A stretch of DNA of 64,000 nt. Origin: Tachypleus tridentatus (Eukaryota; Arthropoda; Merostomata; Xiphosura; Limulidae). The stretch's first letter is position 1. Every line of letters starts with the position of its first letter. Location: contig NC_134834.1 of NCBI RefSeq assembly GCF_004210375.1, positions 95,422,170 through 95,486,169 on the forward strand. The letters run 5' to 3'. Made by a program: the position numbers and the translations under genes. Below are positions 13,751-53,266 of this stretch, one piece after another. The notes beneath the pieces are model-generated. The model was not told the origin of the DNA. It searched no databases and saw only the letters and a program-made list of their open reading frames with translations.

Positions 13751-13943
13751 TTGCAAAGGTAACTTAATCACATTCCGTTTTGTTTTCTTCAGTAACTGTT
13801 TCAACGATCCACTGGACATATACTCTGTAATGAAAATTACTCGTGGTTTGTCTACATCTTTATCCACCCAGTAACGGTGAAACTTCACAATATTTGGGTG
13901 TTCTAATTGAGTAAGATTGTCAAAAACCTGGCGAACTTTTTTC
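13751..13943 (-). CDS. NRBP1: NRBP-family pseudokinase, exon 3 (N-lobe)
   Basis: Internal exon encoding the N-lobe of a nuclear receptor binding protein, a catalytically dead kinase-like adaptor (vertebrate NRBP1/2, Drosophila Madm) linked to trafficking and growth signalling. The minus-strand frame reads KKVRQVFDNLTQLEHPNIVK, then the FHRYW region and VIFITEYMSSGSLKQLLKK, nearly identical to what I recall of vertebrate NRBP1. It ends KRNVIKLPLQ, which I recall as nearer the invertebrate form. The acceptor is a pyrimidine tract plus GCAG (13945-13944 on the minus strand) and the donor is GTAAAT from 13750. The first codons contain six A's (13937-13942); homology (LQE-EKVR) and phase predict five. 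As written, joining to exon 2 shifts the frame and stops within about eight codons. A homopolymer error is the likeliest reason because the rest of the exon is pristine. Confidence 0.92.
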
Positions 13944-15253
13944 CTGCACAAAAAGAAAAGGATATATAAAACAGTTTCATCTTTTAACCAAACATATAAA
14001 ACATGAATACCATTTTGAACTGATTCTCATAAATACTCTGAATCTAAATCCTATCAATGATTTTATAAGATTATATGCACAGAAGTTTTTAAGTTTAGAA
14101 AACAAAATTAATTTCACAGATTTATGTATGTAACTACAATCTTTAAAATAATCCACTTTATAAGAAAATTCTTCAGATATGAAATGCCTAAATGTATTTG
14201 TGTGTATATTAGAGTGATACTTATTTACAATAGACTTACTCTCTTATTTAGTTCCAATATATAAATAAGTAATTAATACCAAATTTTATCTATATGAATA
14301 ATATTTAGGGAGTTGTTTTTACATTTCTGTTTACATTGTTTTTGCATACTTTGTAACATTACAGAATACTTAACATAATTCTAAATAATTTTAGAATTTT
14401 CTAGCATACTATCATGGAACAGTCCAGAGTATTTCACATGATTCAGAATTCTCAAGAATATTCCACATACAAATAATCCATGATAGCAGTATTTATTTCT
14501 AGAATATTCTGTATCACATGGCAAAAGTTTCTGGAATTTTTTAGTGTATTTTAGCAACTAAGGAGATTTTGTGTACCATTTCAAATATATAGTGCAACAA
14601 GAGAAAAGGCTACACTTTGGCTACTTTGTTCAGAAGAAAATAACTGGAAGCAAATTCCCTCAAATAGTCAAATGCTGTGTCTGTTTTTCAACCATTACAA
14701 AACATTAAAGAAAACACTTTGTGAACAAGAAGACTGCAGTATCTTGGAGTAATGCTCAAACACTACAATTCATGTAGAACACCATGTCATTCTCAAACTG
14801 GAAAAGTCTTTTTAAAATGGGTGAAGCTAAAGAAAAGTTTATAAAGGAAAACTGAAACACAGAGACAGTGAAGTAGAGTTTGTCAATAATCTGGATTACT
14901 TTTTCTTTGTGTTTCTCATGGGAATTCTCTGACCCTGTTCAAGACCCCAGAAGACAAACTTTCTTCTCACACAGAGAGAAAGAGGATGTAATGGGTTCAT
15001 AAGCCAGATAGTTAAAGTTCTTTGTTTAAAGTAATCAATGGCTGAGAAACAGTGCAGAAAGTAAGATAGGAAATGGTGTACAGGGTAGGAACACCAAATG
15101 TTGAATGAAACTGTGACTTGTTAAAAATCATCCCACAACAATAACAATGAAGTTGGTGGATAGAGTACCAATAAAAGTGAAAATTAATTGGATAATCAAC
15201 TTCTAAACCTAAAAAGAAGGCCATATGATAGCAGCAGCTTCAGACAAAACTAA
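13944..15253. other. NRBP intron 2, AT-rich segment without a gene
   Basis: Intronic DNA between exon 3 and LINE copy A. It holds a cluster of AGAA/TTCT-rich words around 14390-14540, including a perfect three-block nTTCnnGAAnnTTCn array at 14497-14509 and a 10-bp inverted repeat (ctatcatgga / tccatgatag). No exon was recognised. Confidence 0.45.
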
Positions 15254-15264
15254 GATGTTGAAAG
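15254..15264. repeat. Target-site duplication of LINE copy A, left copy
   Basis: gatgttgaaag, repeated perfectly at 21494-21504 just outside the element's 5' end. Confidence 0.88.
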
Positions 15265-15469
15265 TTGATTGATTGATTGATTTAGTGTTTTATGGCACAA
15301 AGCAGCGAGGCTATCTGCGCCAAACGTCCGGTAAAAAGGTAAAAATAAAGTAAATGTAGTGAAATACATAAAAGGAAATGAAGGTAAAACAAAACATCAT
15401 TGAAAAACAGAAAAAGCATAAAACCAATGTTGACACCTAGTCTACAATGTTAAGAGAGAAAGCAGAGTA

Positions 15470-16090
15470 AAAGAAGTTGTAAAGTACTTACTCTAGCAAA
15501 ATGGTAATGATCATAACCCACCAGGAAGACTAACAGGTAAGTTCAAGAAGTTTATAAAGTTGGCCTTTCCAGTCCTGGTTCTGGGTTATGTGTCATAGCA
15601 GCCATTATCAAAATATAAAATAATAGAAATTTTAAAAGACATATAGCAAAATCGTAATAATGAGTAGCTAAATGTCTGGTGAAAAGGTAAAAGTAAATGG
15701 AGTAAAATTTGTAAAAGTAAATGAAGGTAAAAACAAAAAAGCAATTAAAACATAAAATGGCATAAAACCAATGTTGGCATCCAGTCTACAAAGTTGTAAA
15801 GGACTTCCTGTAGCAGAATGGTAATGATCATAACCCGCCAGGAAGACTAACAGGTAAGTATAAGAACCACCATCAGTCACCTGAAGTTGGTCTTTCCAGT
15901 CCTGGTTCCGGGTTATGTGTCATTATGGCCAGTACTAAAAGGTAAAGTAATAAAAGTGTTAAATGACATGCAGCAAAAGTGTAATAACAACTCGCCAGGA
16001 CGACTAATGAGTAGTTCAAACGGATAGTTCAAACAGCAACGTTAGTCACCTGAAGTTGGCCTTTCCAGTCCTGGTGTTGAGTTATTTAAT
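15470..16090 (-). repeat. 3' UTR repeats inside LINE copy A
   Basis: Three imperfect blocks share the pattern (plus strand) ccaggaagactaacaggta ... tcacctgaagttgg, then cctttccagtcctgg. They occur near 15530-15605, 15838-15925 and 15995-16085. Copy B has two comparable blocks at 6367-6450 and 6487-6570. These are probably repeated 3' UTR modules of the LINE family. Confidence 0.7.
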
Positions 16091-16187
16091 GTTCTGGCCA
16101 TTTGCCAATGTCAAATTTAACTAGAGAAAATGAAACTGTAAAAATGGAACCACAATTAAAAAGGTGTAATAAATAAATATGCAACAC

Positions 16188-17128
16188 TTAAATGAGATTA
16201 AAAAGATTAATGGCCATTAAAAAACTAAAAACTTTATCAAGGTGGACAGTGTCACCATCACCAATAACACTGTCCAATGTTACACATAAACCCTGGGAAA
16301 AAACATGTTTAAAATAGTGCCGTCGTTGAGAATTGTAACGATGGCAAGAAAGTAAAATGTGGCTTATAGTGATTTGAGTGTTACACAAACTACACACTGG
16401 TGCATCAGTTTCAGATAAAAGAAGACGATGAGTTAAAAAACTGTGACCAATGCGTAGTCTAGTTAGAACAACTTCCTCCTCCTGAACCTTACGGAAGCTA
16501 GATGGCCAAAGCCCAATAAAAGGTTTTATGTGAAATAGCTTGTTGTCGTGTTGCTCACTCCAAGTGGACTGCTAGCTAGCACAGAGCTGAGCCTTGAATA
16601 CAAGACCATAGTCCATGTACGGAATAGGCACAGTGTTGATTGTTCCGGAGCAGATAGATTTAGCTGTCGTGTCTGCAAGCTCGTTCCCTCAAATACCAAC
16701 GTGGCCTGGTATCCAGAAAAACTGGATAGAAGTAGCAGTTAATGAGAAATGGGCCAGTTGGTTTCGAATATCAGTGAGAACAGGATGTGAGCCAACGTGT
16801 AGAGATTCTAGGACCAGTATAGAACTAAGCAAGTCAGTATAAATAGTGCAGATGGAGTACTGTTCAGCTTCAATATGATCCAGGGCAAGAGATATGGCAT
16901 AGCAGAGCCCACTGAATTACCTGATTTGGAACCATCTGTATAAATGGGAACGGAATGATCATTTGAAAGATATTCATTAAATAAAAGACGGTACTTCCAA
17001 TCTGGAGTATCTGCCCTTTTCAGATGACTGAAAGAAAGGTCACATTTGGGGGATGTAATAAGCCATGGTGGGATGGGCTGACCTGTGGAATCTGCAATGT
17101 TATCCAAGGACAGACCCAATTCATCCAA
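16188..17128 (-). pseudogene. LINE copy A ORF2, RNase H and C-terminal part
   Basis: Broken minus-strand frames. The piece 16808-17128 encodes IYTDGSKSGNSVGSAM, the TDGS start of a retroelement RNase H domain. The piece 16188-16397 encodes CSLCNTQITISHILLSCHRY, the terminal CxxC-x-H-x-C zinc-like motif of I-type ORF2 proteins. The two are in different frames and the RNase H centre between them is damaged. In a live LINE, RNase H removes the RNA template after first-strand synthesis. Confidence 0.8.
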
Positions 17129-17194
17129 TTGCGCTTGGATGCGAAGACCAAACGGAGCAATGGCAGATCGTCTGTTCTGAAAAAGTATGGCCCA

Positions 17195-18297
17195 CTAAGG
17201 AAGGAAAACACATCCCCAGGTGGAATGCTTTGGTAAGGAACGAAGTTTCGAAGAATATAATAAAGATAGTTGCAAACAGTGAAGGTGCAGAGAAGGTTCA
17301 TGAGATTCAACGTATAAACTTTGAACTGGAGAGGTGCAGAAAACCCCAGTGCAGAGTCGAAGTCCTTGGTGATGAATGGGGTCCAGCATCTTTAAGGCCG
17401 AGGGTCTGGCAGAGCCATAGACCATTGATCCATAGTAGAGTTTTGTTTGAATAAGAGCACAATATACCTTTAACATAGAACATCGATTTGCTCCCCAACT
17501 GGTAGTAGAGAGGACACGGAGGATGTTCAGTGCTCTTGTGCATTTGACCTGAAGCTGCTTTAAATGTGGTATAAAGGTCAGCTTACGGTCAAAGATAAGT
17601 CCCAATAACTTGGTCTCAAGGACCACTGGCAGCAAAACTTCATCAATATGAAGTTCAGGATCAAGGTGAATACCCCGTTGGTGGCAAAAGTGCATGCAAA
17701 CGATTTTAGAGAGAGAGAGAAATTAAAGCCGTTCGCCTTTGTCCACTTCAGTGCACTATTGAAGGCAGTTTGTAGTTGCCGCTCAATATATCTCATGTTC
17801 GATGACTGACATGAGATGTGAAAGTCGTCGACATACAGCCCATTCGCAATAGTGAGAGGGAGTTGTTCAGTGATGGCATTTATCTTTATACTGAAAAGTG
17901 CGACACTCAAAACACAGCCCTGAGGTTCTCCAACTTCCTGTACAAGAGAACGGGAAAGTGTCGAACCCACACGAACTTGGAATCTCCTGTCCGTTAAAAT
18001 TTTTTTAATAAACATGGGTAAATGGCCACATAACCCATATGTATGGAGGTCTCGCAAAATGCCATACCTCCATGTGGTGTTGTAAGCTTTCTCAATGTTA
18101 AAGAATATTGACACAAGATGTTGGCATTTGAGAAAGGCTTCTCTGATTGATGTTTCAAGTCGAATTAGGTGGTCTGTGGTGGAGTGCTGTCGTCGGAACC
18201 CACACTGGGTGGGCGAGAGAAGGTTGTTTGATTCGAGGAACCAAACAAGACGAGCATTAACCATCCTTTCTAAGGTCTTACAGAGACAGCTCGTCAA
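17195..18297 (-). pseudogene. LINE copy A ORF2, reverse transcriptase domain
   Basis: Two overlapping minus-strand frames (18297-17578 and 17695-17195) cover most of the reverse transcriptase. Visible motifs are FLESNNLLSPTQCGFRRQHS (fingers), GEPQGCVLSVALF (the conserved PQG block) and ANGLYVDDFHI, the active-site box with YVDD where most LINEs have YADD. The 17695-17195 piece carries the thumb region (ALIQTKLYYGSMVYGSA). Frame changes between pieces mean no complete ORF2 survives. The upstream part of RT is at 18373-18699. Confidence 0.85.
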
Positions 18298-18372
18298 AAC
18301 AATTGGACCATAGTTTGAAGGAATCTTGGGATCTTTCCCTGGCTTGGAGAAAGGTAAAATAACAGCCTGGCA

Positions 18373-19179
18373 TCAGGCATCAAGAAAAACATTCTCCTGC
18401 CAGATACGGTTAAAGATAATTAGAAGGACATCAAGAGAAGCAGGAGATAGATGGTGCAGCATGTCATAGTGTACATCATTAGGTCCAACAAATGTACTGC
18501 CAGACCGATGAAGGGTCATTTTCAGTTCCACCAGTGTAAAGGGACAATTATAGTCAAAGAGACAGTCAGTTTGAAAGGAAAGAGGTGAACGCTCTGCCAG
18601 AGTCTTGATGGCCAAGAAGGTGGAGGAACAAGCAGAAGTGCTAGATACCCAGTAAAAGCATTCACCTAGAGTATGAGCGATGCTCCAGACATCAGCCACC
18701 TCCTGACCATCGAGTCAGAGTAAGATCGAGAGGGGGGCAGAATTGTAGTGCCCACTGACCTTTTGAATCCTGTCCCATATGACCTTGGAACTGGTGGTAG
18801 AAGATATGCTAGTTGTGAACTTAATCCAAGATTCCTTCTGGCTTTGATGTCTTACCCACCTAGCATGTGCAAGGGCCCATTGGAATGTGACGTGGTTTGA
18901 AAATGTGGGATATCTACGAAAAGCATCCCAGGCCCATTTTTGAGCCTTCCGTGCTAAGTGGCAAGCAGGATTCCACCACGGACGAGGATATCGTGGAAAA
19001 TGTGTCGAGGTTTTAGGAATACACTGAGCAGCTGCTTGTATAATACAGCCAGTTACTGCTGCCACACAGTCATATATTGATGGCTGATTCACCATGGTAG
19101 GATCAAGTACTGCAAGAGGAGTAAAAGTGGACCAGTCTGCCTGATCCAGCTTCACCGGGGCACATGGGTAGGGTGGCAT
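18373..19179 (-). pseudogene. LINE copy A ORF2, linker between EN and RT
   Basis: Two minus-strand open pieces (19179-18715 and 18699-18373) bridge endonuclease and RT. The first contains RYPRPWWNPACHLARKAQK and KVIWDRIQKVSGHYNSAPLS, typical of the region after the endonuclease in I and Jockey-like ORF2 proteins. The second contains PFTLVELKMTLHRSGSTFVG, matching the start of the RT domain (LVELK...SPGPD in intact relatives). Confidence 0.75.
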
Positions 19180-19838
19180 CGACTATGGCCAGTCTCTCTC
19201 AAAAGTATAGGAAAATGATCACTGCCTGGTGAAGTACTGTCAACCCTCCACGAAAAATGAGAGAATAATGAAGGGGAGCAAGCTGAGAGATCAATAGCGG
19301 TAAAGGACTGACTAGGTGCATGAAAATAAGTGGAAGAACCAGTATTGAAAAAAGAAAGATTGTGATCAGAGAGCATATGCTCTACAGAGTGACCCCTCCC
19401 ATCAATAATAGCACTTCCCCAGAGGGGATGATGTCTATTAAAGTCCCCCAGGAGTAGAAAGGGAGACAGCAACTGTTCAACGAGAGCATCAAGGTCTGAT
19501 TGATCACATGTCTCACCAGGGGACAGGTAGAGAGAACAAACAGTGATGGTATGACCCAAGAAAACACGAATGGCTACGGCCTCCAAGGGTGTGTTGAGTG
19601 ACAAAGATAGGGTGGGAACATGCTGATCAACCAATAGTGCCACCCCTCCATGTACTCGTCCATCACACAGCCTGTCATTTCTGTACAGAGAAAACTGCCG
19701 AATGGTGACTGTATCAGCAGGTTTTAGAAATGTTTCTTGTAAGGAAAGACATACAGGATGGTAGGAAGCAATAAGTGTTTTGATGTCATCCAGATTAGAA
19801 CATAAACTTCGACAGTTCCATTGTATCAAGGTGGCCAT
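19152..19838 (-). pseudogene. LINE copy A ORF2, AP endonuclease domain
   Basis: A 228-codon open frame begins MATLIQWNCRSLCSN and shows the apurinic-endonuclease signatures: LSLQETFL (catalytic E), LLLGDFNRHHPLWG (GDFN) and GSDHFPILL (SDH). This domain nicks the target DNA for target-primed reverse transcription. It is intact as an open frame, but the following frame is shifted. It starts a few bases from the end of the ORF1 region, consistent with the compact two-ORF layout of the family. Confidence 0.9.
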
Positions 19839-19840
19839 TT

Positions 19841-20714
19841 TTATTGATGAGTAGGTGAAGTGGTTGGAGAACCCTTCTGTTTACAACCATGTCTTTTTTT
19901 CCTTATTGTCCTTAGTCGGAGGAGATCTATCAACCATGGATCTTGCCCTGGGTCAATTGGGTAGGGATTCCAGTGACTGAGGAAGCGAATGAATGATTGT
20001 TTTGCCTCTTGGGGTGAGAAAAAAAGATGTATCAGAAGAAATGCCTGTATTTGAAACTGAAGGATGTGGATCTTGAGGTTTGTTGGAATGTATGGGAGGA
20101 ACAGAGATGGGTGTGGAAGTCGATTCAACCTTTTTAACCATGGAGGTCAAAAGGCTTTTCATTTGTTTTGAAAACAATTCTCTTGGAGGCACAGAGAGAT
20201 CTATCTGCACTCCCACTGTAGTTGTAGAATGAAGTGCAGCAGCATATGTCCGAGATGGAGTGGCAGGCAGCAATTTCCAAGCCTCAGGATAACTAATGTT
20301 ACGAGTCGTTTTCAAACGCTGCACCTCTTTTTCCTCCAACCATTTTGGGCAAGAACGAAAGTAGGAAGGGTGAGAACCATTGGAGTTGACACAATGTGGG
20401 TCCATGTCGCATTCATAGGCATCATGGTCCTTGCCACCACAATGAGCACATGTCAGGGAACCATGACATGATGTCTTTGAGTGGCTGAACCTCTGACATT
20501 GGAAACATTGGAGAGGGTTTGGAATGTATGGCCATACCCTGCAAATTAGATAACCTGCCTTGATGGTGGCAGGTGCACGTGATGATATAAATGTCAAAAC
20601 GAAGGTATTTGTTGGCAGTGTAACTCCATCTTTGCGAGTGAAAATGCACCTCACTGCAGAAACTCCTTGAGTGGAGAGACCAGCAAGAATCTCTGACTCG
20701 GGGACATTCTTCAA
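19841..20714 (-). pseudogene. LINE copy A ORF1, zinc-knuckle nucleic-acid binding protein
   Basis: A 253-codon open piece (20714-19953) encodes the C-terminal two thirds of ORF1. It reads GVSAVRCIFTRKDGVTLPTN, then PYIPNPLQCFQCQRFSHSKT, then two further knuckles (CAHCGGKDHDAYEC; C-x9-YFRSC). ORF1 proteins of this type coat the LINE RNA. The N-terminal third (about 20715-21090) is recognisable on the minus strand but broken, and the expected start codon reads TTG at the position where copy C has ATG. Confidence 0.85.
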
Positions 20715-21493
20715 ATTCCTCTCAACAATAACTCCTCATGATGAATTCAAGGTAGCATGAGGGGTAACCTCAATAGGTATATCCCCAATTGCTGTTGAAT
20801 TAAAGAGGAGTTCACTGTGGTGGGTTGTGGATGTTTCAACTAATATGTCTCCAGATCGAAGCTTCTTTATTGACTTTGGAGAGCCAGCAAGACCCTCTAG
20901 TCCCTTCTGAATAAAAAAGGGGACAATTGCCCTAAAGGTTTTTCTGAAAGAGAATGTAATATAAGAAAATGAGGTACGTGTGTTACAGATGTTGAAGATT
21001 GCTACTCAGAGTTTTCAAGACATGGTCACTTACCTTTTGACTGTGTTTTCACTATTTTATTTACATTTTGTGAAGGTGGATCCAAAGGAAAAAAGAAATA
21101 TTTCGGTATCCACTGACCTCACCCACCATGGAGCCCTACGAGGGGATGCACTACAATGTCATGCAAGGGTTTTGTGAGCACTATACCCAAACACCAGCAT
21201 CAGGCACAATGTCCACAACACCCATTGAGAACTTCCAACATTGGTACTTGGTTAACTCTAGCCCAAGTGGACCAGCCGATTGACCCAAAGGCTGCCCATC
21301 TACAGGAATTCAAGGCCAAAGTGGTGTGTTAGGGTTGGACCCCTCAACCACCAGGATCCTCTCCTCCCCTTCACAGGTCGCTATGCACAGCAAATACGTG
21401 GGTGGATGTTTAGATCCCAGAGAAGGTATCCAGACAGAACAGAACCTTCCCTAGGAGGTCCCCTCACCACGTACAGGAATCCACACCGAGGGG

Positions 21494-21504
21494 GATGTTG
21501 AAAG
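21494..21504. repeat. Target-site duplication of LINE copy A, right copy
   Basis: gatgttgaaag, matching 15254-15264. It fixes the LINE 5' end at 21493 and shows that the 5' end is not truncated relative to the target. Confidence 0.88.
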
Positions 21505-23630
21505 AAAGGCAACATTTGTCCTTACTGCCAAAACTCACACACAGCCTTGATCATGATGTGCAGGAACAAACTATCAACAGTTCTTCAATTATTGGTTTCA
21601 TTTCTGCATAAATAACTTAAAGAACAATTCCAGCCAACACTCTCACTTGTAGTTCACAAGGATAGCAAGCTACTTATAATGATACTTATGGTATCATTAT
21701 ACCATATAGAAAGGAAAAGTGAATAATCTGCTGGTAATCCTGTCTAAAACCACCTCCAATGTGTTCTAAAATTGACTTCTGGCACTGAACATGTTCAAGC
21801 TTTCTTTGCAGTAAGATTGGCAAGTCATAGATCATGTAAAGGCAGTTACTTTTCACAGAACAGTAAACAATACTGGTTGCAGAAATAGAGCAGCATATGT
21901 GCTGTTAAGACAAAGTTTAACCCTTTCGAAATGGGTTCAGTATAATATATACAAGTTTACACATTTTCACATGCTAACTATTTGTACTATAACTTTTGAA
22001 AGAGCATGTGCATCTTCACAAACTTTGGTAGACTTTTAGTGAAGATTACAAGTACTTTATATGAGAAAATTCTGATTTATTTAATTAAATCTACTAAAGA
22101 TTTGTTTATAAAAATAGAGTCAGTTTTGTTACTCATCTGAGTGCAAAGTGATTTTATGTTATAATTAAAAAACTATTCTTCATCCCAAAAATCTCAAATA
22201 TTATTTGTGTAGTCTTTAACACCTCCAAAATATATTTAATATGTTTGTTTTCAAGAAAAGTTTATATTTTATGTTATTTTCTACACTCTAACTATGTGTA
22301 ATCTGTCACTTTACCAACCTTGTAACCATCATAAAGAAATTAAAAAATGAATATAAATTTTTTTTTCTGCTACAATGATTACATAGCATAACACAAAAAT
22401 AGCTGAAGTCTCATGACACTATATATTACATATATATTTATTATTTTTTTATTATATTGACCTTCCAGTCACGCCTAGCTAACATTAGATAACTTACTAT
22501 GATGCGATGCACATGCAATCAGGTCACACATCCAGTAACATAAAACTGACCTTTAGTCTTCCCTGTATTGGCTATTTTTTTAGTGAAGTAGTATTTTGTA
22601 ATATACAGTCATATTATAGTAATTATACATATATGTATATAGATTATTACTATTTAGAAATTATTAAACTTACTTTAAATATATAGAGCAATAAATCAAC
22701 AGATAAAGGAAACAATTATCTCTTCCTGCTATAACCTCTGTACTCTGTTGCTAAGTCTTTTACAATTTTGCACTTGGAGGATATCAAACACTTTTTTTTT
22801 AAGGTTGTATATACATATAAAATTGAATAACCAAAAAATCATAAATAACTACATGGATAACAAAGAATTCCACTATAATTTATTACCCTTAGTAAATGAG
22901 AAGATCTATCTATATTTTAAAAAATATGAAACTTCGAGCAAATTAAAAACAACCATATCTCACTGAGCCCTTGGATTGAAAAAAATGTTGTTGTTTTTAG
23001 ACTAAAATGGTGGAAAAACTACTCTGGGGATATTCGACATTCTGAGCTGTTGATTCACATGCCATTTTTTTAAGTAAATGTATATATATGGGACTGTTTT
23101 ATAAATGGAAAGATTTGAATGGGGCCACAATGTATGATTTAGTACATAAGCAATGTCTAAGCAAAATAAAAGGATACGAGGTTCTACTTTTATAATCTAG
23201 CTTGATAATAACAGTAATATGAGTTCCTAATTTGTACAAAATTATAGACTTAGTATTTTGACATCATAAACATCTAGTTTCAAACAATACTGCATTCAAC
23301 ATACCATGTTACACACTAAAATGTATGTTTAAATATGCCCTTTTAATATTTATTTTAATTTAATAAATTAACTCATATATAACATTAAACTTTGAATTAT
23401 AATCTATAATTTGATTTCAAACTTATTAACACAAATTCATAAATATTAGTTACTTATAAAATTTTGAATGCAAGTTAACAAATGCAGTGACATGGCCTTT
23501 GACCAGTTACCCAATGTGAAAGGGTTAAACAACAAGTTTCTGTAATTGGAATGCTAGCATCATATCTTTGAACACATCTTGGCATATGATCAAAGACTTT
23601 ATGAGTCCAGATATTTCTATTTTAAACCGA
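21505..23630. other. NRBP intron 2, AT-rich, no gene seen
   Basis: Very AT-rich DNA with runs of TA and no coding signature, SINE or tandem array recognised. Confidence 0.5.
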
Positions 23631-23639
23631 TTCCATTAA

Positions 23640-24440
23640 TCTTCAACATACACAGATCAGTCCAGTTATGAAACTAAAGCTGACAAAGATGAAGTACCAG
23701 AAATTTTAGAGAAAGTTAAGGAGAGTATCACAAAACAACTTCAGGCCATCCAACCCAAAGACAATTATCAAGAATTTCTTGAACTTGTCATACCTTTTCT
23801 TGGTAGCATCTATCTTTGTGGAGTATTTATAGCATCTGAAGCAACAAATAATATACAATGGATGGTAAATACATATGTTTCAAGATCTAGATGTTTCTGG
23901 TACTTTTTATGTTTACAGGATATGAGGAAAGATGACTTCACGAAATCTGCATCTTTCTTGGTTGAGTCTATCCTAAGTCTTAGTTCACTACTCCTGATGC
24001 CACTTCTGCACCTTTCAGTTATCTTAATATTCCACAATGCTTTGGTATGCCTACTCAGTGGGCATCCGTGGTATTTTAACGAAGAACGCATTAGTTTTGG
24101 TTTTTTTTCAACTGTATCCACAAAGACAAAATGAGTAATGGTAAAGACAAAGTGAATCTTGGCTGTTTATTGGTAACTTTGAGGATATACTATTTGAAGC
24201 TTTTGTCACAAAGAATACAGACTTCTTTAGTTGCCTCAAAATTCAACCTGGATTTCTGATTTCTGACCACTAGCTGTGGGAATTTACCAAGGACTACATG
24301 GAGGTGCTACAGACACTTCAACAATTGAATGTGATAAATGACAATGTTAAAAACGATGTGGCTCTTATTGAAGGGTATATAATGCCACTATAACAAAGAA
24401 AAAATAACAGAAATAATTTCTCCTTCAAGTTTCGTAGGAT
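23640..24440 (+). pseudogene. Decayed transposon-type ORF
   Basis: Plus-strand remnants spread over several frames. An early piece reads QLQAIQPKDNYQEFLELVIP. A late piece reads NDNVKNDVALIEGY (near 24330-24380). A middle piece contains YFNEERISFGFF. I associate this combination (..DYxEFLEL.. / ..LSEELVxLAFF.. / ..NDxAERGVALI..) with an unnamed repetitive protein family common in arthropod genomes. The superfamily is unknown to me. Multiple stops and frameshifts make it non-functional. It lies in NRBP intron 2 on the strand opposite to the host gene. Confidence 0.5.
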
Positions 24441-25176
24441 TATAAAAGCTATCCAAACAGAAACAATAACAATGCAAAATTAACTAACCCCACCACCTTT
24501 GAATAAACATTATCTAATTATGTAATTATACTATTGTAGATGCAATAAAATAGTTTCCCCAGAAGAAGGGCCAAAGGCTGCCTGGAAAGGTCAGTTGTTT
24601 AATCACAATCATCATTACACTGTAGTATGATGTTTGTTAGTAAGACAAACACTAAAATAATATCACATAGGGAGCACTTAAAATTGGAATTTGTACTTTC
24701 ATGATTTAATGAAACATGCACACACCATTATACACTCTGTAGGCATAATGCAGCACAACATACTGACTGCAAAAGCAAGAAATAAAAATATTTATTAGCC
24801 TTAATTTTGGTTTTACTTACTCTTGAAACCTAAAATTTTCACGGACCCTGTAAAAGTACATCTAGTAATAACTTTACATTAATCATTTATAATACATAAC
24901 AAATATGTTTCTATATAACATAATACATAAGGTAGCAAAGCAATGCAATCTAGAATTTCATAACAATTACACTCTTACAGTAGTTAAAGCCCATAGCTAG
25001 TGTTTCCATGTCAACTCTGTACGTTATATTGCATTATTCATTTATCCTTACTTTCATAAACAGTACTGGTTATACTATTTAATGTACTGAATGTCATGAA
25101 GTTTTATATTGATTTAGTGTTTATTAATTTTATATTATTGCAAAGATTGATTTGCTTTGTTAACTTAGTACATGCA
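24441..25176. other. NRBP intron 2, no gene seen
   Basis: AT-rich DNA; nothing recognised. Confidence 0.5.
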
Positions 25177-25184
25177 TTTAGGAC

Positions 25185-25348
25185 CAGTGGTGGGATTCAA
25201 AAATTTTAAGGGGTTCTCTCAAGGAGATGTTTCCACGACATCAACAATTCGACGGTATAATTGAAGCCATCAACGGGTTCGCTAAGCTCAAAAATTTTTA
25301 AGAACGGGTTCGCGCGAACCCCTGCGAACCCCCTGAATCCCACCACTG
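25185..25348. mobile_element. hAT-type MITE, 164 bp, with 8-bp TSD
   Basis: Perfect 15-bp terminal inverted repeats (cagtggtgggattca at 25185-25199 and its reverse complement at 25334-25348) are flanked by the perfect 8-bp direct repeat tttaggac (25177-25184 and 25349-25356). An 8-bp duplication with CAG..CTG termini is the signature of hAT transposons. The element is far too short to code, so it is a miniature non-autonomous derivative. Its interior is rich in ggggttcg/cgaacccc words that form internal inverted repeats. Confidence 0.9.
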
Positions 25349-25356
25349 TTTAGGAC

Positions 25357-25870
25357 TAACCTAAATCTCCTAAGTTAATCAAACATTACAAGATATTATT
25401 CATAGTACAGCCAAAGATACCATTAACAAGAAAAAGTACTAAACTAGTGACACAAGGCAAGTATATTTTATAATATACACTGACCATCACATTGATCTTT
25501 AGATTCAATCTAATTTAACACTTTGCTTTTATTAGAAGTAAATTTTAAAGTTTTTAATTAAAAATATACTTACTTAATTTAATAAATTTTAAAAAAATAT
25601 ATACTTACGAATATTCTTTCTTGATAGGATGATAATTTAATAAACTTTAAAAATAAGCATTTTATTTTGTATCTTAATTTCACCACACAAAAGAAAACCA
25701 ATATCCACTGTCAATTAATTTTGCATTATTTTCTTTAATTTCAAGAACACATACATAGAAGTGATGTTAAGTAACTGGGACCTTCACTGCACATTTACAG
25801 ACTTGGGTAGTACAAGAAATTTTCTAATTAATTAATTACAGGGCTCATTATTATATTCATCTAACACTGT
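25357..25870. other. NRBP intron 2, no gene seen
   Basis: AT-rich DNA; nothing recognised. Confidence 0.5.
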
Positions 25871-25883
25871 TCTTAGACGAGAT

Positions 25884-26159
25884 GTTTGTTTGTTTTTGAA
25901 TTTCGCACAAAGCTACTTGAGGGCTATCTGTGCTAGCCGTCCCTAATTTAGCAGTGTAAGACTAGAGGGAAGGCAGCTAGTCTTCACCACCCACAGCCAA
26001 CTCTTGGGCTACTCTTTTACCGACGAATAGTGGGATTGACCGGCACATTATAACACCCCCACAGCTGAAAAGGCAAGCATGTTTGGCGCGACCGGGATGC
26101 GAACCCACGACCCTCAGATTACAAGTCGCAAGCCATAACACGCTGGGCCATGCCAGGCC
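25884..26159 (-). mobile_element. tRNA-Thr-like SINE with 13-bp TSD
   Basis: Minus-strand copy of the window's main SINE. The tRNA-like head (B box ggttcgnatcc on the minus strand) is at the right and the (AAAC)n tail at the left. Flanks tcttagacgagat (25871-25883) and tcttagatgagat (26160-26172) match at 12 of 13 bases. Confidence 0.9.
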
Positions 26160-26172
26160 TCTTAGATGAGAT

Positions 26173-26790
26173 AGCTAAAAACAACGTATAATACTAAAAA
26201 TCAGGTTTCAGTATCTGAGATGAGAAGAGCACAGATAGTTCATTAGGTAACTTTGGGCTTATCAACAAATAAAGTGGCAACATTTTGATCACTTGGACAA
26301 TTTGAATTTTTCAAAATAGCAATAATTAGAAACCCTACTTTCAATTAAGTTTATTATTTTTAGAAACTTAAACTGATGAAAAAATAATAATGAAAAAAAC
26401 ACAATGACAATATTTTGATAACTGAAGAGATGAAATAAACAGAAACAGTAATAATTAGAAATGCTAATTTTGATTTATTTATTGTTTTCATAATTAATAG
26501 CTTTAAGCTTAATTTTGATTAGTGGTTGGTAATAACGAGAAAACGTAATTGGTTATTTTTAGGACATTAAATTCATTTTACCTTTTATTATTTCTACATG
26601 ACACTAATTAATACGTACAGGTAATTAGAATTATTTGTTAATCATCTGTTTACAATTAATATGTTTTGCGGGCTTGATTATCAGAAAGGTCAATAGCCTC
26701 ATATATATCAGTGGCTACAAACGTGTATACACATTTCTGGCAAATTTGATGTGTTTATTAAGTTAAAAATGGAAAACAAACTTTAAATAT
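26173..26790. other. NRBP intron 2, no gene seen
   Basis: AT-rich intronic DNA between the SINE and the minisatellite; nothing recognised. Confidence 0.5.
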
Positions 26791-27796
26791 ACATTCACAG
26801 TGCTTATAACACCTCTTGACATTCACAGTGTTTATAACACCTCTTGACATTCACAGTGTTTATAACACCTCTTGACATTCACAGTGTTTATAATACCTCT
26901 TGACATTCACAGTGTTTATAATACCTCTTGACATTCACAGTGTTTATAACACCTCTTGACATTCACAGTGTTTATAACACCTCTTGACATTCACAGTGTT
27001 TATAACACCTCTTGACATTCACAGTGTTTATAACACCTCTTGACATTCACAGTGTTTATAGTACCTCTTGACATTCACAGTGTTTATAGTACCTCTTGAC
27101 ATTCACAGTGTTTATAGTACCTCTTGACATTCACAGTGTTTATAGTACCTCTTGACATTCACAGTGTTTATAGTACCTCTTGACATTCACAGTGTTTATA
27201 GTACCTCTTGACATTCACAGTGTTTATAGTACCTCTTGACATTCACAGTGTTTATAGTACCTCTTGACATTCACAGTGTTTATAATACCTCTTGACATTC
27301 ACAGTGTTTATAGTACCTCTTGACATTCACAGTGTTTATAATACCTCTTGACATTCACAGTGTTTATAACACCTCTTGACATTCACAGTGTTTATAGTAC
27401 CTCTTGACATTCACAGTGTTTATAGTACCTCTTGACATTCACAGTGTTTATAACACCTCTTGACATTCACAGTGTTTATAACACCTCTTGACATTCAGTG
27501 TTTATAATACCTCTTGACATTCACAGTGTTTATAATACCTCTTGACATTCACAGTGTTTATAGTACCTCTTGACATTCACAGTGTTTATAATACCTCTTG
27601 ACATTCACAGTGTTTATAGTACCTCTTGACATTCACAGTGTTTATAATACCTCTTGACATTCACAGTGTTTATAACACCTCTTGACATTCACAGTGTTTA
27701 TAGTACCTCTTGACATTCACAGTGTTTATAGTACCTCTTGACATTCACAGTGTTTATAGTACCTCTTGACATTCACAGTGTTTATAGTACCTCTTG
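26791..27796. repeat. Minisatellite, 28 bp x 36, abutting the NRBP exon 2 donor
   Basis: Thirty-six head-to-tail units of acattcacagtg-tttata-nnn-cctcttg (28 bp; one unit near 27481 is 26 bp). The three-base variable spot reads aca, gta or ata. Total 1,006 bp. On the NRBP strand each unit carries CAAGAG followed by GTACTA, GTATTA or GTGTTA. The rightmost unit overlaps the last six bases of exon 2 (CAAGAG at 27796-27791) and supplies its GT donor (27790-27789). Little divergence between units suggests recent expansion and homogenisation. Confidence 0.97.
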
Positions 27797-27913
27797 TAAT
27801 CTAAAATGTTTCCTTTCCGAGAATTTCACTTCATTCCATACAACTTCTACACCTTCTTCAGTGTCCATAGCTAGGTAAGAAACATCAATCCCTGGAATAT
27901 CTCTCTGCTGAAC
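27791..27913 (-). CDS. NRBP1: NRBP-family pseudokinase, exon 2
   Basis: A 123-nt exon, phase 0 at both ends, encoding 41 residues: VQQRDIPGIDVSYLAMDTEE, then GVEVVWNEVKFSERKHFRLQE. This matches the vertebrate NRBP1 segment after KRREEV (as I recall it, QRNVPGIDSAYLAMDTEEGVEVVWNEV...). It forms the first strands of the pseudokinase N-lobe, and no standard glycine-rich loop is seen. The acceptor is TTAG just upstream (27915-27914 on the minus strand) and the donor GAG|GTACTA sits in the first unit of the 28-bp minisatellite. Reading past the donor meets a stop two codons later (GTA CTA TAA), so this is the only usable GT. It joins in frame to exon 1 (EE|VQQ). The join to exon 3 is discussed there. 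Confidence 0.94.
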
Positions 27914-27960: not shown

Positions 27961-28232
27961 TGTTTGTTTGTTTGTTTTTTAATTTTGCGTATAGCTACTC
28001 GAGGGCTATCTGCACTATCTTGTCACTTATTTAGCAGTATAAGACTATAGAGAAGGCAGCTAGTCATCACCACCCACTGCCAACTCTTGGGCTTCTCTTT
28101 TACCAACAACCAGTGGGAGTGACTGTCACATTATAACGCCCCCACAGCTGAAAGGGCGAGCATGTTTGGTGTGATAGGGATTCAAACCCACGACCCTCAA
28201 ATTATGAGTTGAACACCTTAACCCACTTGGCC
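27961..28232 (-). mobile_element. tRNA-Thr-like SINE with perfect 13-bp TSD
   Basis: In NRBP intron 1, 48 bp from exon 2. Target-site duplication aagaatttgaaat at 27948-27960 and 28233-28245. (AAAC)n tail at the left, tRNA-like head at the right. Confidence 0.92.
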
Positions 28233-28245
28233 AAGAATTTGAAAT

Positions 28246-33859: not shown

Positions 33860-34051
33860 TTCTTCTCGTCGCTTCAGCCAACGTCCGCAAGGGCTTTCCT
33901 CTAATATTTCGCTGTCATCTTCAGAATCATCATTACTCTCTCTCTCTTCTTCATCTTGTTTTGGAACAGAATTATTTTGGTTCGAGTCCGACATGTTATC
34001 TTCATCTGTTGGTGGCTTACCACCAACTGAATCTTTCAAAATATCTTGCAT
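33860..34051 (-). CDS. NRBP1: NRBP-family pseudokinase, first coding exon
   Basis: A 192-nt coding part (64 codons, phase 0 end) with start ATG at 34051, chosen because an in-frame TGA lies two codons upstream. A second in-frame ATG (MSDSNQNNSV) aligns with the human start (MSEGES...) and could also be used. The N-terminus is acidic and low-complexity (EEERESNDDSEDDSEILEE) and ends in the family hallmark SPCGRWLKRREE, immediately before the pseudokinase domain. The donor is GAA|GTAGGT at 33859. The first intron is 5.95 kb (27914-33859). The protein is a cytoplasmic scaffold without catalysis in characterised relatives. Exons downstream of exon 3 are not in the window, so about 169 residues of an expected 500 or more are seen. 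Confidence 0.93.
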
Positions 34052-34309: not shown

Positions 34310-34430
34310 CATTTTGTTAGCTGTATAACTTTCGAACTAAACTCTTTGTTTGAATTCTGAAATAAAAAAAAATGACATTAGAAACCCGTAGTCATCAGTT
34401 TTACTCTTCGTAAATTTCATTTTCTAATGG

Positions 34431-34701
34431 TTTGTTTGTTTTAAATTTCGCGCAAAGCTACTCGAGGGCTATATTTAGCCGTCCCTAATTTAGTAGTGTA
34501 AGACTAGAGGGAAGGCAGCTAGTCGTCACCACCCACTGCCAAATCTTAGGCCACTCTTTTACCAACGAATAGTGGGATTGACCTTCACATTATGACCCCC
34601 CTACGGCTGAAAGGGCGAGCATGTTTGGTGCGACCGGGATTCGAACCCACGATCCTCGGATTACGAGTCGAATGCCTTAACACGCTTGGCTATGCTGGGC
34701 C
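34431..34701 (-). mobile_element. tRNA-Thr-like SINE
   Basis: Minus-strand copy upstream of NRBP. Head at the right (ggttcgaatcccggtcgcac read on the minus strand). The flanks ttctaatgg and ttctataatgg suggest an imperfect target-site duplication. Confidence 0.88.
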
Positions 34702-34728
34702 TTCTATAATGGTATATTAACATTGTCC

Positions 34729-40318: not shown

Positions 40319-41001
40319 TTTATTTACATTATAACAAAGCAATAATGAAATAATTATCAACCGTTTTACAAACTAAAAGTAGTTAAAAAATGAATTTTTT
40401 GATTATTTTATTGAAAAAAAAGTTAAAGCTTCAAAATACAGTCGTGCTTTGCAATGATATTCAAACATTAGTATATCTGAAGTCCTAAAATGTCTGGATT
40501 CTGGGGTGAAACAAAATCCTGCATCTATGTTCATAGTATTTCTGTTAGGAAATGCAATTCTACTTTGTGTTATTTGTCGACGTGTGCAGAAAATTCAACG
40601 GTTATAAAACGAGAATTATTCGGTTTGTTTGTTTGTTTGTTTGGAAAATTCTAGTCCGAGTAAATATAATATCTGCAACTTATGGACTGAAATTAATACG
40701 TACTAAAATTCCCTGAATCTGTTTGAGTGACTGACCTTACCGAGTAATTCCTGCACTGCGTTACACAGCTGTATCGTAACAACAGAGACAGGATAAATAA
40801 CACATCTAGTAAATTGAATTCTATAGCTATTGGATCAGCCTATTTGAACTTTTAATGGGAAAAGAGAAGTATTTAGAGTTATAGACACAACTGTGATATC
40901 CAATAAAGTAACGAGTTTTTCCACATACGCTTGACTTGTTTTGAATATATTATTTTAAAATAGTTGGATTGTGTATTGTACGCTTATTGCTCGAATTCAT
41001 C

Positions 41002-41162
41002 GCCATTAAATCACAGACACTTACTACAAATAATCCAAGCCCGTATACATAAAACTCTGACAAATTTCGGCAATAAATATTTTATATTTTTGGTTAACTG
41101 TAGACATTGCAAAATTAAATATGTAGGGGAAACTAGGTGATGATTAAAAGGCATAATGAATT
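41002..41162 (+). repeat. 161-bp repeat, copy 2
   Basis: Nearly the same as 40074-40234; orthologous position in unit 2 is 53267-53427. Likely the ancestral location, since it is the only one shared by both units. Confidence 0.7.
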
Positions 41163-41605
41163 GATATAAGTCTTCTAATAAAAATAAATATTAAAGTTTC
41201 CTCTACAAGCACATCCGCATTCTTTTGAAAATTTTCACACTCAACCCGTAGAATTAATACAACATAATGAATTCTAAAGTTTACGCAATAATCCTTTGAA
41301 ACAGAAGGCTACTAAATAAAATCTTTAAATGTAATTTCTCCTGCAGAATTAACGACCATGTTAGAAATGTTTCCAAATTAAAGCTTTTAATTTGAAAATA
41401 ATTCATATCTTTCTCAGAGATTACACGTTAATCCAATTAGTTCACGGACGTAAATACAGGACAAGCAATATTCATTCACTTAAAGATTCACTTACGAACT
41501 CTAAACTTCATATTGTCTGACATTTATATAAAATAACCTAAAAACAAATGATCATTACGTTTGATGAGCAATTTAAATCAGTTGTTATTTGTTTCTTGTC
41601 ATCAG

Positions 41606-41670
41606 TTTTATTTTACGAACGTAAAGATGAAGTTTATCCTATAAATCCAGTTGTTGGCAGACGTATTGAA
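41606..41670 (+). other. Exon-like segment between splice-like signals (unproven)
   Basis: A 65-bp stretch preceded by ttgtttcttgtcatcag and followed by gtaagtaatag. One frame is open and reads FYERKDEVYPINPVVGRRIE. The unit 2 counterpart (53871-53935) is identical inside, but its following sequence reads gtaattaatag. No neighbouring exon was found. It could be a stray exon of an old gene fragment or chance. Confidence 0.3.
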
Positions 41671-41988
41671 GTAAGTAATAGAGTTAAATTTATAGCTACA
41701 GACTTATTTACGAAAGTGGTTAAATAACACTTGTAAAACTTGATACCTATGATTAGCTATTCTAGTATAAATGGCATTAATAATAGAACGACTTATTATA
41801 ATAACGTGGCAGATAACATAAAGAAACAGGAGGGGTACTCAGGAGAGCACATATATCCGGTGACATACGTAAACACAGAAATGAAAATATAACTTCTGTC
41901 AACTTCTGGGGCGGAGAGAATGAGAAACTGCATGATATTTCATCATCTTGTTTCTAATTTAATTTATTTCTGAACGATTATTTTTCAG

Positions 41989-42236
41989 GCCCGGCATGGC
42001 CAAGTGGGTTAAGTTTCGAATCCCGGTCGCAGTAAACATGCCCAACCTTTCAGCCGAGGAGGGCGTTATAATGTGATGTTCAATCCAATTATTCGTTGGT
42101 AAGAGAGTAGTCCAAGAGTTGGCGGTGGGTGGTGATGACTAGCTGCCTTCCATCTCAGTCTTACACTGCTAAATTAGGGACGGCTAGCGCAGATAGCCCC
42201 CCGAGTAGCTTTGCGCGAAATTTAAAACAAACAAAC
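41989..42236 (+). mobile_element. tRNA-Thr-like SINE with shortened head (unit 1)
   Basis: Head lacks the anticodon-arm region (aagtgggttaagtttcgaat), then a standard body and an aaacaaacaaacaa tail. Counterparts are at 54254-54501 and, interrupted, at 61268-61713. It lies just downstream of the astacin poly(A) signal. Confidence 0.9.
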
Positions 42237-42470
42237 AATTACTGTCGCTTAATCTATCGGTAAATTATTTAAAGCAATGTACTAATGTATGTGTTCCTTT
42301 TTGGTCCATACATACTTGGTTATCAAGGATGTTGGAAAAATATACTACGTGATTTTGACTTAATTTGTTGCACATCAAACAATCTATAGATTGCTTACGA
42401 ATGTTCATAAAGAAGTGAAAATACGCTCAAGGTGATGAAAGTACAATGTTTTCAAGGAAAATAAGACAGT

Positions 42471-42476
42471 TTTATT
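42471..42476 (-). terminator. Poly(A) signal of astacin copy 1
   Basis: AATAAA on the minus strand, about 217 bp past the stop codon, the first canonical hexamer seen. The same context occurs at 54736-54741 downstream of copy 2. Confidence 0.6.
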
Positions 42477-42692
42477 TAATCAAAAATAAGTACAAGAAAT
42501 GAACTTAGAATAACTTGTAATTTCAGTGAAGTTTCGACGCTTCAGTTGTAACTTTGTACTTGTTACTAACACAGTACATATAATTTAAATAGTATACTTT
42601 TAGCTTATTAGATCACTTGTGAAACAGTAGTAAAATTCATGCGTTTCTTCCAATTATTAAACACATCTTTGTTTAGAAGTCAGTATTTCATT

Positions 42693-42913
42693 TTAACACT
42701 TATAGAGCATCTTGATACGCTTTATGTCGTTTTGACTGAAACCTGGCTTATCATAAACTTCTTTCAGAAATTTTCCACTTTTGGCTATCATTGTTTTCGA
42801 GACATTGTCCTTTGAGAATGACTTTTCACCGTACAACATAATTGAATCGTAATCGAAGTTAGTTAATAATCTGTTTTGATCTTCTCTGAGTTTTACAAAC
42901 TGACTATCCATAC
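42693..42913 (-). CDS. Astacin copy 1, exon 6 (Met-turn, C-terminus)
   Basis: Begins [20 protein letters not shown], then [17 protein letters not shown], ending [12 protein letters not shown] before the stop. SIMLY is the Met-turn with the fifth zinc ligand Tyr194; C239 closes the fold. Confidence 0.95.
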
Positions 42914-45900
42914 CTAGAAAAAGTAGAGAAAACAATAAAGTTCAGTTTTATTGTACAGCTGTCACGCTAAAAATTAGAGCTTTTTCAATTTTGAGTACAT
43001 TTCAGATATTTGTTGTCATAAATTAGGATAACATGTGTTTTACAAGTACATGATCTGAATTATAGCTATTACGGTCTGGCGTAGCAAAAATAAACTCGCG
43101 TTATTTATATTTAAATTTTACCAATATTATTATATATTTTGATAAAACATGTGAAATACCAGTACGAGGTTTGTTTGGTTACTGTTAAGCACAGAGGCAC
43201 ACAACGAGTTGTCTGTACTTTGGCCACCACGCACATTGAAACCCATATTTTTGTTGTTGTAAATCTGCAGACACGCTGTTGACCAGTGGGATAGTATAAA
43301 ATTCGTAAAAAAGTTACTTACATGAGGAAAGTTAATTCAATTTCATTAAAATTGGGTCCTTGCATGGATAAGTGGACAAGGCACTTAACTGAGAGTCGCG
43401 GGTTCGAATCCCAGTCACACCAAACATGCTCTCCCTTTCATATGTGGGGGGCGTTATAATGTTATAGTCAATCACACTATTCGTTGGTGGAGTAGTAGCT
43501 CAAGAGGTGGCAGTTGGTGGTGACGACTAGCTGCCTTATCTTTTTGCTGACTGTAGCTAACACACCGATTTTTTACACGTTTACCAAAGGAAATATTCAA
43601 ACTCACCAGCCTGAATATTATTCCACATGATAATTAAGTAGTCATCACGGTCAGATCTGTTCTGTTCATGCCAGAAACCTACAGCGTGACCCAACTCATG
43701 AACAATGGTTCCAATATATTCACATCCTGTTCCCAGCGACAGCTCCTGCGCTCCTATGTGGGCATTTCCAAGATAGGAGTAACACCTGCAGTAAATAAAA
43801 ATATTGCTAAGGTTTGTGTTTGACGTTCTCTAAAGTCTTTCTAAAACAAAGCGAAATTCAGAGAGGAATAAGTTACAAAAATGTAGACACGAAGGAAGAA
43901 TAATAGATAATAACTAAACACCTTTTTAACACACTTTTGACAGATACGTATATAATATTTGTTCCCTTTGGTTTCACTGAATAACACCTTTAAAATATAA
44001 AGTACACATAGAATATCAATATCTGTTTCTGAATCACCGTAATGTTATAAAAATAAATCATTCACTACCGTTTTAAGAATACTTAAAAAATTGATCAAAA
44101 TGCTCGGTTAACAGTAATGAATTATAACTAATTAGTTTAAACTCTTTCACAGGGTAATACGAGGGTCGTGAGTTCGAATCCCGATCGCACCAAAACGTGC
44201 TCGCCCTTTCAGCCGTGGGGACGTTATATGTGACGGTCAATCCCACTATTCATTGGTAAAGGAGTAGCCCAAAAGTTGGCGGTGGGTGGTGATGACTAGC
44301 TGCCTTCCCTCTTGTCTTACACTGCTAAATTAGGGACGGCTAGCGCAGATAGCCCTGGTGTAGCTTTGAGCGAAATTCAAAACAAAAATCATATTTCACG
44401 GGATAACTATTGTAATGAAACAAAGATAGTTGTGGTAAGGCACAAACAACTTCTTTCTTCTTTCAGCTGATGAATGAAAACATTTCAGTTAGTTTGTTAA
44501 TAGTTGTTGTTGTAATGTGCTACTGTTGCTTTTTAAAATGGTTAAAACTGTTTAAAGTTTGTTGGTCAAGGTGTAGTCTGTTTAAGTCTTGTCCTAGGAG
44601 CTCGTATGGCTTATTTTTGTTTCGAAATCAAGCAGCTCTGTTTGTAAATATTAAAACAAGTAGTCGTTGTTAAGAAATGTAAGTTATTTAATGAGTTTAA
44701 ACAGTTTATTTGCAGAAACTAACATATTTTAAAGTACTTAAGTTGCCATTTCTCTGAAACTAATTGTGTTTTGTGCACACTTTATCGTATACGCAATGTC
44801 TCAAGCGACTATTTTAGTTCAGAAAGATTTGGTTATTATATTTTACCATTAGTTTTCAACAAATCAATATCTTGGCTGCAAATTTAAACATGTTTTAATG
44901 TTTTTTATTAACGATGCAGCCCCAGTGGCACAGCAATTTGTCTGCTGACTTGCCACGTTAGAAACCGAGTTTTGATACCTGTTATGGGCAGAGCACGTAT
45001 AGCCCGTTGTGTAGATTTGTGCTTACTTACAAAAAAATAGAATTAATAATGGAGAACAAGTCCTGGTATTGTTTCGATACATTTTCTAACATAACAAAAA
45101 ACATTAGATATAATACCAACTTTCGAATTGCATTATTTACTATTTCTTTGTTTATATTTTAGAGTAGAGCGACAGTACGAGTTCTTTTATTCTGTCTTAG
45201 AGAATCGTAACCAAGATTTTATGAAGGGACGACCCCCAAAGTTGGTGACAACCAATCGTTAAGCCTCCCCCTATTCTAAATTATATACTTCACGTTTACA
45301 CTCGTACATCTGTGTGAAGTGAGCCATTTCTATATTGCCTTATTACTTAATATTGTTTGGTATTCGATTGTATCCTAACATAAGTCCTAAGGTGTTGGTG
45401 TTACGAACAAAATCAAATTTGTAAGTTATGAATTAATCGATTTCTTACCCAGATTCATTTATGAGCCCTAATTTGCAATTTTTATGTTTTAATACATCTA
45501 TCACATTAAACTGTCTCATGATATCAGTACCAAGTAATTCAGTAATAGAAATTATTTTGAATTTCTGTTATTATTGAAAAACTGAAATGTATATATTTTT
45601 TTATTCATATAAACTGAAACCATAGTTTACAATTCTAACCTTACCCTTGGCCTTGAAAGATTCGAACGTAGTTTCTCTCAGTGGTTCTCAACTTAAATCT
45701 CAAACAAGTGAAGGTGTGATATTGAGCTATGGCACTGCGTATCTTTCCTTGGAGACCAGCTATTAGGAGAACCAACTAAATGTAATAGTACTGTTTTCAA
45801 CTCATCTTGGAGAATAAAATCAACTTAAAAACAAGTAAAACAACTGCTTTTTACTTAAAATTAAAATCTACTATGAAGACAAAAAGAGTTAAAAATATGA

Positions 45901-48856: not shown

Positions 48857-48928
48857 TTTTTAAAATTTACTAGCCTCGACACCAGTGTCCAGAACAAAAG
48901 AAAATGAGACTCCTCAGCGCTGTTAGCG

Positions 48929-48936
48929 TATTTAAA
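48929..48936 (-). promoter_or_regulatory. TATA-like box of astacin copy 1
   Basis: TTTAAATA on the minus strand, 73-80 bp upstream of the ATG, with an initiator-like CTCATTT about 25-30 bp downstream. The same sequence and spacing precede copy 2 (61194-61201). Confidence 0.6.
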
Positions 48937-49002
48937 GACCCCAGAGCCTGACTTTTGTCTTCTATGGGAACCTTACATCAGGTCAGGCGGATATTTCTTT
49001 TC

Positions 49003-52331: not shown

Positions 52332-52911
52332 GTAGGTATGTTTTATCATATCTTAATATACTTATTATTAACAGGAGTTAAATCAACTTTACTGTTAATG
52401 TGTGTGTTTTAATAGCAAAGCCACATTGGGGTATCTGATGAGCCCATCGAGAGGAATCGAACTCCTGATTTTAGTGTTGTAAATCCGAAGACATACTACT
52501 GTACTAGCGGAATGCGTTTCTGTTAATCTACAGAAAAATTAAGAGATGTAGTTATCATTATCCACTGTCCATATTAAATAGTTCTGGTCGTAACAATCAT
52601 TAGTGAGGCCAACCCGGATGAAAATCAAAGACAGGCAAGAAAACTACAATCAAAATAGGCGCATCTTAGTGGCAGAGCGGTGCGATTGCGAACCTACAAC
52701 GCAAGAAACCGGGATTCGATACCCGTGGTGGGAAGAGAATTGCGCTTTGTTTTCAGTTTAGGCCTTATAGCGAGCTCTTGTGGGTATATTTGTTCGACTG
52801 CGTCTAGGAAACTTTATAATTAGGTATAAGATGCACTATATGTACATCTTCAAGCGTGAATGAAATGCAAAATTGTATTTTGTAGTTTTCGCTATGATTT
52901 GTTATGTATTA
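52332..52911. other. 580-bp segment present in unit 2, replaced by (TTTG)n in unit 1
   Basis: Unit 1 has a 22-bp TTTG-rich stretch (40625-40646) at this place. The segment contains second-family SINE pieces (minus, 52402-52513; plus, 52659-52800) and no gene. Confidence 0.75.
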
Positions 52912-53266
52912 AATTCTAGTCCGAGTAAATATAATATCTGCAACTTATGGACTGAAATTAATACGTACTAAAATTCCCTGAATCTGTTTGAGTGACTGAC
53001 CTTACCGCGTAATTCCTGCACTGCGTTACACAGCTGTATCGTAACAACAGAGACAGGATAAATAACACATCTTGTAAATTGAATTCTATAGCTATTGGAT
53101 CAGCCTATTTGAACTTTTAATGGGAAAAGAGAAGTATTTAGAGTTATAGACACAACTGTGATATCCAATAAAGTAACGAGTTTTTCCACATACGCTTGAC
53201 TTGTTTTGAATATATTATTTTAAAATAGTTGGATTGTGTATTGTACGCTTATTGCTCGAATTCATC

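Follow-up and report, generated by a model that had tools for sequence, protein, structure and literature searches.

The window analyzed here, a stretch of 64,000 nucleotides from the horseshoe crab Tachypleus tridentatus, contains part of an NRBP-like gene on its minus strand. The genome itself points to a horseshoe crab, probably Tachypleus: it has 19 matches to Coagulin, a family known from horseshoe crabs only, and a joined two-exon piece agrees with coagulogen 1aoc at 94 of 95 residues. Pfam identifies a kinase domain in the NRBP-like sequence, and the closest solved structures are those of WNK kinases. The kinase sequence has HGN instead of HRD (IIHGNLTCDTIF), which we take to be a mark of NRBP; the gene name, which is likewise our assumption, agrees with the one given in an earlier interpretation of this DNA (the original prediction). 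Coding exon 1, with a putative start codon, lies at 33860 to 34051, and its end, at CGRWLKRREE before GTAGGT, was placed by eye. Coding exon 2 (27791 to 27913, 123 nt) translates to the 41 residues VQQRDIPGIDVSYLAMDTEEGVEVVWNEVKFSERKHFRLQE, with RLQE at the C-terminal end, and its final six bases, CAAGAG, are part of the first unit of a minisatellite array. Intron 2 starts inside that array and spans 13,847 nt (13944 to 27790), and exon 3 follows at 13751 to 13943 with 193 nt as assembled, compared with 192 nt in each paralogue. Beyond the window lie pieces of four more exons, and for the 3' part of this gene copy there was no convincing match in the neighbouring stretch examined.

Several other repeats occur around these exons. 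Upstream of exon 1 there is a direct duplication of approximately 8.4 kb, with 99.3% identity between window positions 40646-49002 and 52911-61267. A SINE-like element of approximately 270 bp is present in many copies at about 75-89% identity (among them 25882-26160, 27963-28233 and 34430-34702), with one copy some 50 bp upstream of exon 2. Between about 2600 and 21500, introns 2 and 3 hold several decayed copies of putative non-LTR retrotransposons, mostly on the minus strand, a call made by eye from reverse-transcriptase-like and zinc-knuckle-like frames.

TRF reports a single array at 26791 to 27796, with a period of 28, 36.0 copies, 97% matches and a score of 1795. When the minus strand is cut at CAAGAG, 36 units result, every one of which opens with CAAGAGGT. 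The unit has the form CAAGAG/GT (the slash marks the exon-intron boundary), then ACT, ATT or GTT, then ATAAACACTGTGAATGT, and comprises six exonic and 22 intronic bases across the exon 2/intron 2 junction. Two units depart from this form: unit 11 (27491 to 27516), an ATT type shortened to 26 bp by a two-base deletion, and unit 36 (26791 to 26818), a GTT type that ends the array and has an A-to-G change found in no other unit. The rest are 17 ACT, 10 GTT and 7 ATT units, the ATT unit differing by one change from ACT and by one from GTT. Units 3-9 are identical in order to units 14-20, a correspondence found by a criterion picked post hoc and equalled in 794 of 20,000 shuffles, and units of the same type are neighbours more often than shuffling produces (19 runs, p = 0.02). 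These patterns of unit order are weak evidence for higher-order growth of the array.

Every unit carries a sequence resembling a 5' splice site, CAAGAG/GT being present in 36 of 36. Judged from the exon 2 frame and from the same exon end in array-free paralogues, the predicted exon 2/intron 2 junction sits within the array; the exon-adjacent donor, GAG/GTACTA (27789 to 27790), is the first of the 36. The original prediction was right that the CAAGAG of exon 2 and its GT donor are the end of a 28-bp unit in 36 copies, on which TRF and unit splitting agree, and that 35 further donors of the same form follow in register. It had also assigned the variable spot in the donor to positions +3 to +5. 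This holds for +3 (A or G) and +4 (C or T), the only variable positions if units 11 and 36 are set aside, but not for +5, which is T throughout. After the last exon 2 codon the frame reads GTA CTA TAA, or valine, leucine and stop. As had been foreseen, use of a later donor would add a premature stop to the extended isoform: the in-frame TAA, 6 nt past the exon end (27782 to 27784), would be read if the donor of unit 2 or any later unit were used.

The unit appears to be confined to this locus. With the ACT unit and up to three mismatches, we obtained 35 matches in the 2.17-Gb genome, all inside the array, and no copies elsewhere within that threshold; the only array unit outside the match set is the 26-bp unit 11. 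A DNA similarity search pointed to five other genomic places at 65-81% identity, and TRF run on four of the five found arrays of different units. A query of two CACAGTGTTTATA copies separated by 10-24 bases had 57 matches (46 forward, 11 reverse), and the reversed control had one. The 57 fall in the window array, in an array on C14 (twice, in opposite orientation), in a 3-copy array on C5 and in one pair on C2; on its other strand the C5 repeat, of which 501 bases were read, has CAG/GTAATATAAACACTGTG. We do not take these matches as evidence of a minisatellite family sharing a core, as the query itself selects for likeness.

Searching the genome with exon 2 identified three places: the window, a copy on C7 and a second C10 copy approximately 11 Mb away. 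Exon 3 returned the same three places together with five weak kinase-like matches. In all three copies exon 2 is closed by CAAGAG and a GT donor, and intron 2 starts with gtactataaac in the window, gtaaaaacact on C7 and gtattataatt in the second C10 copy. The last of these, GAG/GTATTATAA, equals the ATT unit over nine intron bases, whereas the C7 intron start departs from the unit after GTA. The arrangement is not conserved between the gene copies: TRF found no array at exon 2 of either paralogue in the 10-kb stretches searched, and the arrays that it does find there lie kilobases from exon 2.

From this comparison it is very likely that the exon 2 end and its donor are older than the array, and that the array has grown from the local junction. 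The repeat most likely derives from the gene's own junction because both paralogues end exon 2 alike without an array and one of them matches the ATT unit. The proposal that the array arose by capture and amplification of a native 5' splice site is thereby supported, through the shared CAAGAG/GT and the identity of GTATTATAA with the ATT unit in one paralogue. The nine-base match is only suggestive of a local origin. At the base composition of the window, the background chance of seven matching bases after GT is approximately 3.5e-4, before the three variants and two paralogues are counted. As a measure of divergence we compared 194 codons, from pieces of exons 2-7 only, for which dN is 0.084 and 0.098 and dS 2.56 and 2.03 between the window copy and the two paralogues, and dN is 0.028 and dS 1.14 between the C7 and second C10 paralogues. 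These values indicate constraint on the coding sequence compared and saturation at silent sites between the window copy and its paralogues. Because of this saturation, because the match is short and because the C7 paralogue is without it, the nine bases may also reflect chance or splice constraint.

The comparison of paralogues also brings out a frameshift that the original prediction missed. Exon 3 begins as cag/GAAAAAAGTTCGC in the window, where the paralogues have tag/GAAAAAATTCGT and tag/GAAAAGATTTGC; the extra A, in the A-run at the exon start (13937 to 13943), is a +1 frameshift relative to both. Joined to exon 2, GAG/GAAAAAAGTT (GAG followed by GAA AAA AGT) is out of frame. The extra A could be polymorphic, could stem from a mistake in the assembly or the homopolymer, or could reflect a genuine loss of frame; its presence weakens arguments from selection. 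Rescue of the frame by use of the unit 3 donor was considered and rejected: by arithmetic the added length restores the frame, but the stop in unit 1 precedes it.

We scored 17 donors of the three NRBP genes with an approximate vertebrate-like matrix, assigning positions from conserved reading frames; the donors left unscored were those of exon 7 and of exon 1 of the C7 copy, an exon that was not found. On this matrix the window exon 2 donor scores lowest of the 17 (-1.44) and the exon 2 donor of the second C10 copy second-lowest (-0.92), while the remaining 15 range from 1.0 to 8.46. The three donor types of the array have nearly equal scores on the same matrix, all of them below those other 15. 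Predicted pairing with U1 is -5.3 to -5.8 kcal/mol for the three unit types and -3.0 to -11.1 for the other 15 donors, three of which pair more weakly than the window exon 2 donor at -5.7 (window exon 3, -3.0; exon 6 of both paralogues, -5.6). The weakness of the donor rests mainly on the matrix, and as a measure of weakness the U1 energy is mixed. Standard U1 pairing was assumed because both U1 loci inspected (2 of 42 matches) contain the standard ATACTTACCTG. The genome has at least 42 matches to U1 snRNA, among them tandem clusters with a spacing of approximately 4.5 kb on C11 (~78.82-78.91 Mb) and C19 (~68.56-68.60 Mb).

We also considered, and rejected, a special RNA structure that hides the donors. 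The minimum free energy is -49.0 for 10 units preceded by 60 nt of exon 2, and 88% of 150 period-keeping shuffles were equally or more stable; in 63% of 150 shuffles the donors were no more accessible than in the real array. Both folding and accessibility are unremarkable by this standard. An artificial array made entirely of GTT units folds more stably (-80.1) than one of ACT (-49.7) or ATT units (-51.1).

The reading that we favour, with a probability of roughly 0.6, is that of a passively expanded junction minisatellite that grew from the native junction, with splicing mainly via the exon-adjacent donor. A 28-bp stretch across the exon 2/intron 2 junction would have been duplicated in tandem and would then have grown to 36 copies by ordinary minisatellite turnover. 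Whichever unit adjoins the exon should re-create the correct exon end. Because the unit holds the last two codons of the exon together with the donor, a gain or loss of copies would scarcely affect the protein or be seen by selection. Most splicing would likely use the donor next to the exon or a few others close to it; a later donor would append valine, leucine and a stop, and the resulting transcript should be either degraded or truncated.

How surprising such an overlap should be depends on how dense minisatellites are locally. In 182 kb around the three genes we counted 25 arrays with a period of at least 10, of which 7 have at least five copies (window array included), and arrays cover 3.55% of the sequence. 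At this density approximately 0.08% of junctions would be expected to lie no more than 10 bp inside an array edge. Without selection that corresponds to about 150 such junctions per 200,000 donors, or about 130 if the window array is subtracted, an expectation to be read as an order of magnitude, since the number of donors is assumed and the 182 kb form a small sample taken around a single gene family. A single junction-overlapping array is therefore unsurprising, because local minisatellite density makes overlaps likely by chance. Two considerations may nevertheless weigh against passive growth. If intron-proximal donors were preferred, most transcripts would contain the stop and the array could hardly be neutral; and the exon 3 frameshift could mean that this gene copy is perhaps not under selection now.

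If the frame at exon 3 has really been lost, the array could be a relic in a failing copy, one that grew since splicing no longer mattered. The out-of-frame exon 3, one base longer than the 192 nt of either paralogue, fits such a history, and two other NRBP copies could cover the function, yet the extra base, one of a run of As, may be polymorphic or a product of misassembly, and the other compared exon pieces are open, with splice sites (by eye) and low dN; we consider this history unlikely. Quite unlikely, in our judgement, is a regulatory role in which weak donors compete for the pre-mRNA, part of it ends up in stop-containing transcripts, and the output of NRBP is tuned by the length of the array. 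None of the 36 donors is broken, the three types score near-equally, and the in-frame TAA 6 nt past exon 2 awaits every donor after the first. AS-NMD, alternative splicing with a stop-containing exon extension, is a natural comparison, since an extended NRBP exon 2 would carry an early stop. The NRBP array differs in that it is missing from both paralogues found and that the extended transcripts here are only predicted; furthermore, identity of the donors is expected from recent homogenisation, and nearly the whole remaining unit is identical too. A stronger form of the idea, in which a self-renewing, length-variable array sets the stop-containing fraction of NRBP through the number of downstream donors and its length becomes a heritable dosage dial for this gene copy, strikes us as improbable.

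Very little probability attaches to copy number or register being partly an assembly artefact: this is a single assembly and long arrays are error-prone, but the unit types are mixed along the array, unlike copies of a single unit, and the array runs straight into unique exon 2 sequence. That multiple donors secure the splicing of a weak site is very hard to credit, even though none of the 17 donors scores lower on the matrix than that of window exon 2. Splicing from a backup donor would bring in the stop and could not rescue the protein, which is our argument against buffering; the second C10 paralogue, moreover, has no array and makes do with one donor almost as weak. Sequestration of U1 snRNP by the array can practically be dismissed. 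The 36 sites do have some complementarity to U1, with the standard ATACTTACCTG in both inspected loci, but their predicted pairing is weak (-5.3 to -5.8 kcal/mol compared with -11.1 for the best NRBP donors), and U1 is multicopy, with at least 42 matches, such that a single locus should be unable to deplete it. The original prediction had offered buffering, titration of U1 or tuning of output as possible roles, none of which is upheld in view of the stop on backup donors, the weak matrix scores, the multiplicity of U1, the unremarkable accessibility and the likelihood of chance overlap. Functional readings of the array are open but unsupported.

The human IFI6 gene offers the closest parallel to a junction minisatellite of this kind, with a repeat of 12 bp, much shorter than the 28-bp NRBP unit. 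Turri, Cuin and Porter in 1995 reportedly described the IFI6 (G1P3, 6-16) minisatellite as providing multiple splice donors. Excerpts of papers citing that work run counter to the original prediction, which knew of no described case. According to one of them, two downstream repeat units of IFI6 are used as donors, giving three mRNA species (PMC4526556); in another, Turri et al. 1995 is cited for minisatellites that interfere with splicing (PMC3618361), and it appears in the reference lists of PMC2572611 and PMC2915984. IFI6 resembles NRBP in that the repeat units of a minisatellite carry splice donors at the end of an exon. It differs in that its transcripts encode different isoforms (PMC4526556), where later NRBP donors would add a stop, and in that use of several donors is reported for IFI6 and hypothetical for NRBP. 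By analogy, the NRBP array is probably a further case beside IFI6-type donor minisatellites.

According to Ma et al. 2016 (PMC4974935), introns can be gained when an AGGT segment, or a stretch across an exon-intron boundary, is duplicated in tandem, and the NRBP array, with AGGT in its unit, likewise would represent a tandem duplication across such a boundary. Here, however, there is no sign of a new intron; judged by reading frame, the three copies share the same exon 2 end, and the duplicated units sit in an existing 13.8-kb intron. In the portion of the earthworm metallothionein report available, minisatellites lie inside intron 1 and not at the donor. A literature search on VNTRs, exon-intron boundaries and splice sites gave no like case by title or start of abstract, and one on horseshoe crab, minisatellites and NRBP1 matched only work on mammalian karyotypes and centromeres.

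The locus shows how a minisatellite can lie across a predicted coding boundary and leave it intact. Should several units be in use, the array would be a natural series of 36 near-identical competing donors, with three variants at +3/+4, in which positional splice-site choice could be measured with the context almost constant. The second C10 NRBP copy has a minisatellite of its own, 62 copies of a 32-bp unit at C10:106305155-106307146, starting approximately 105 bp past exon 5.
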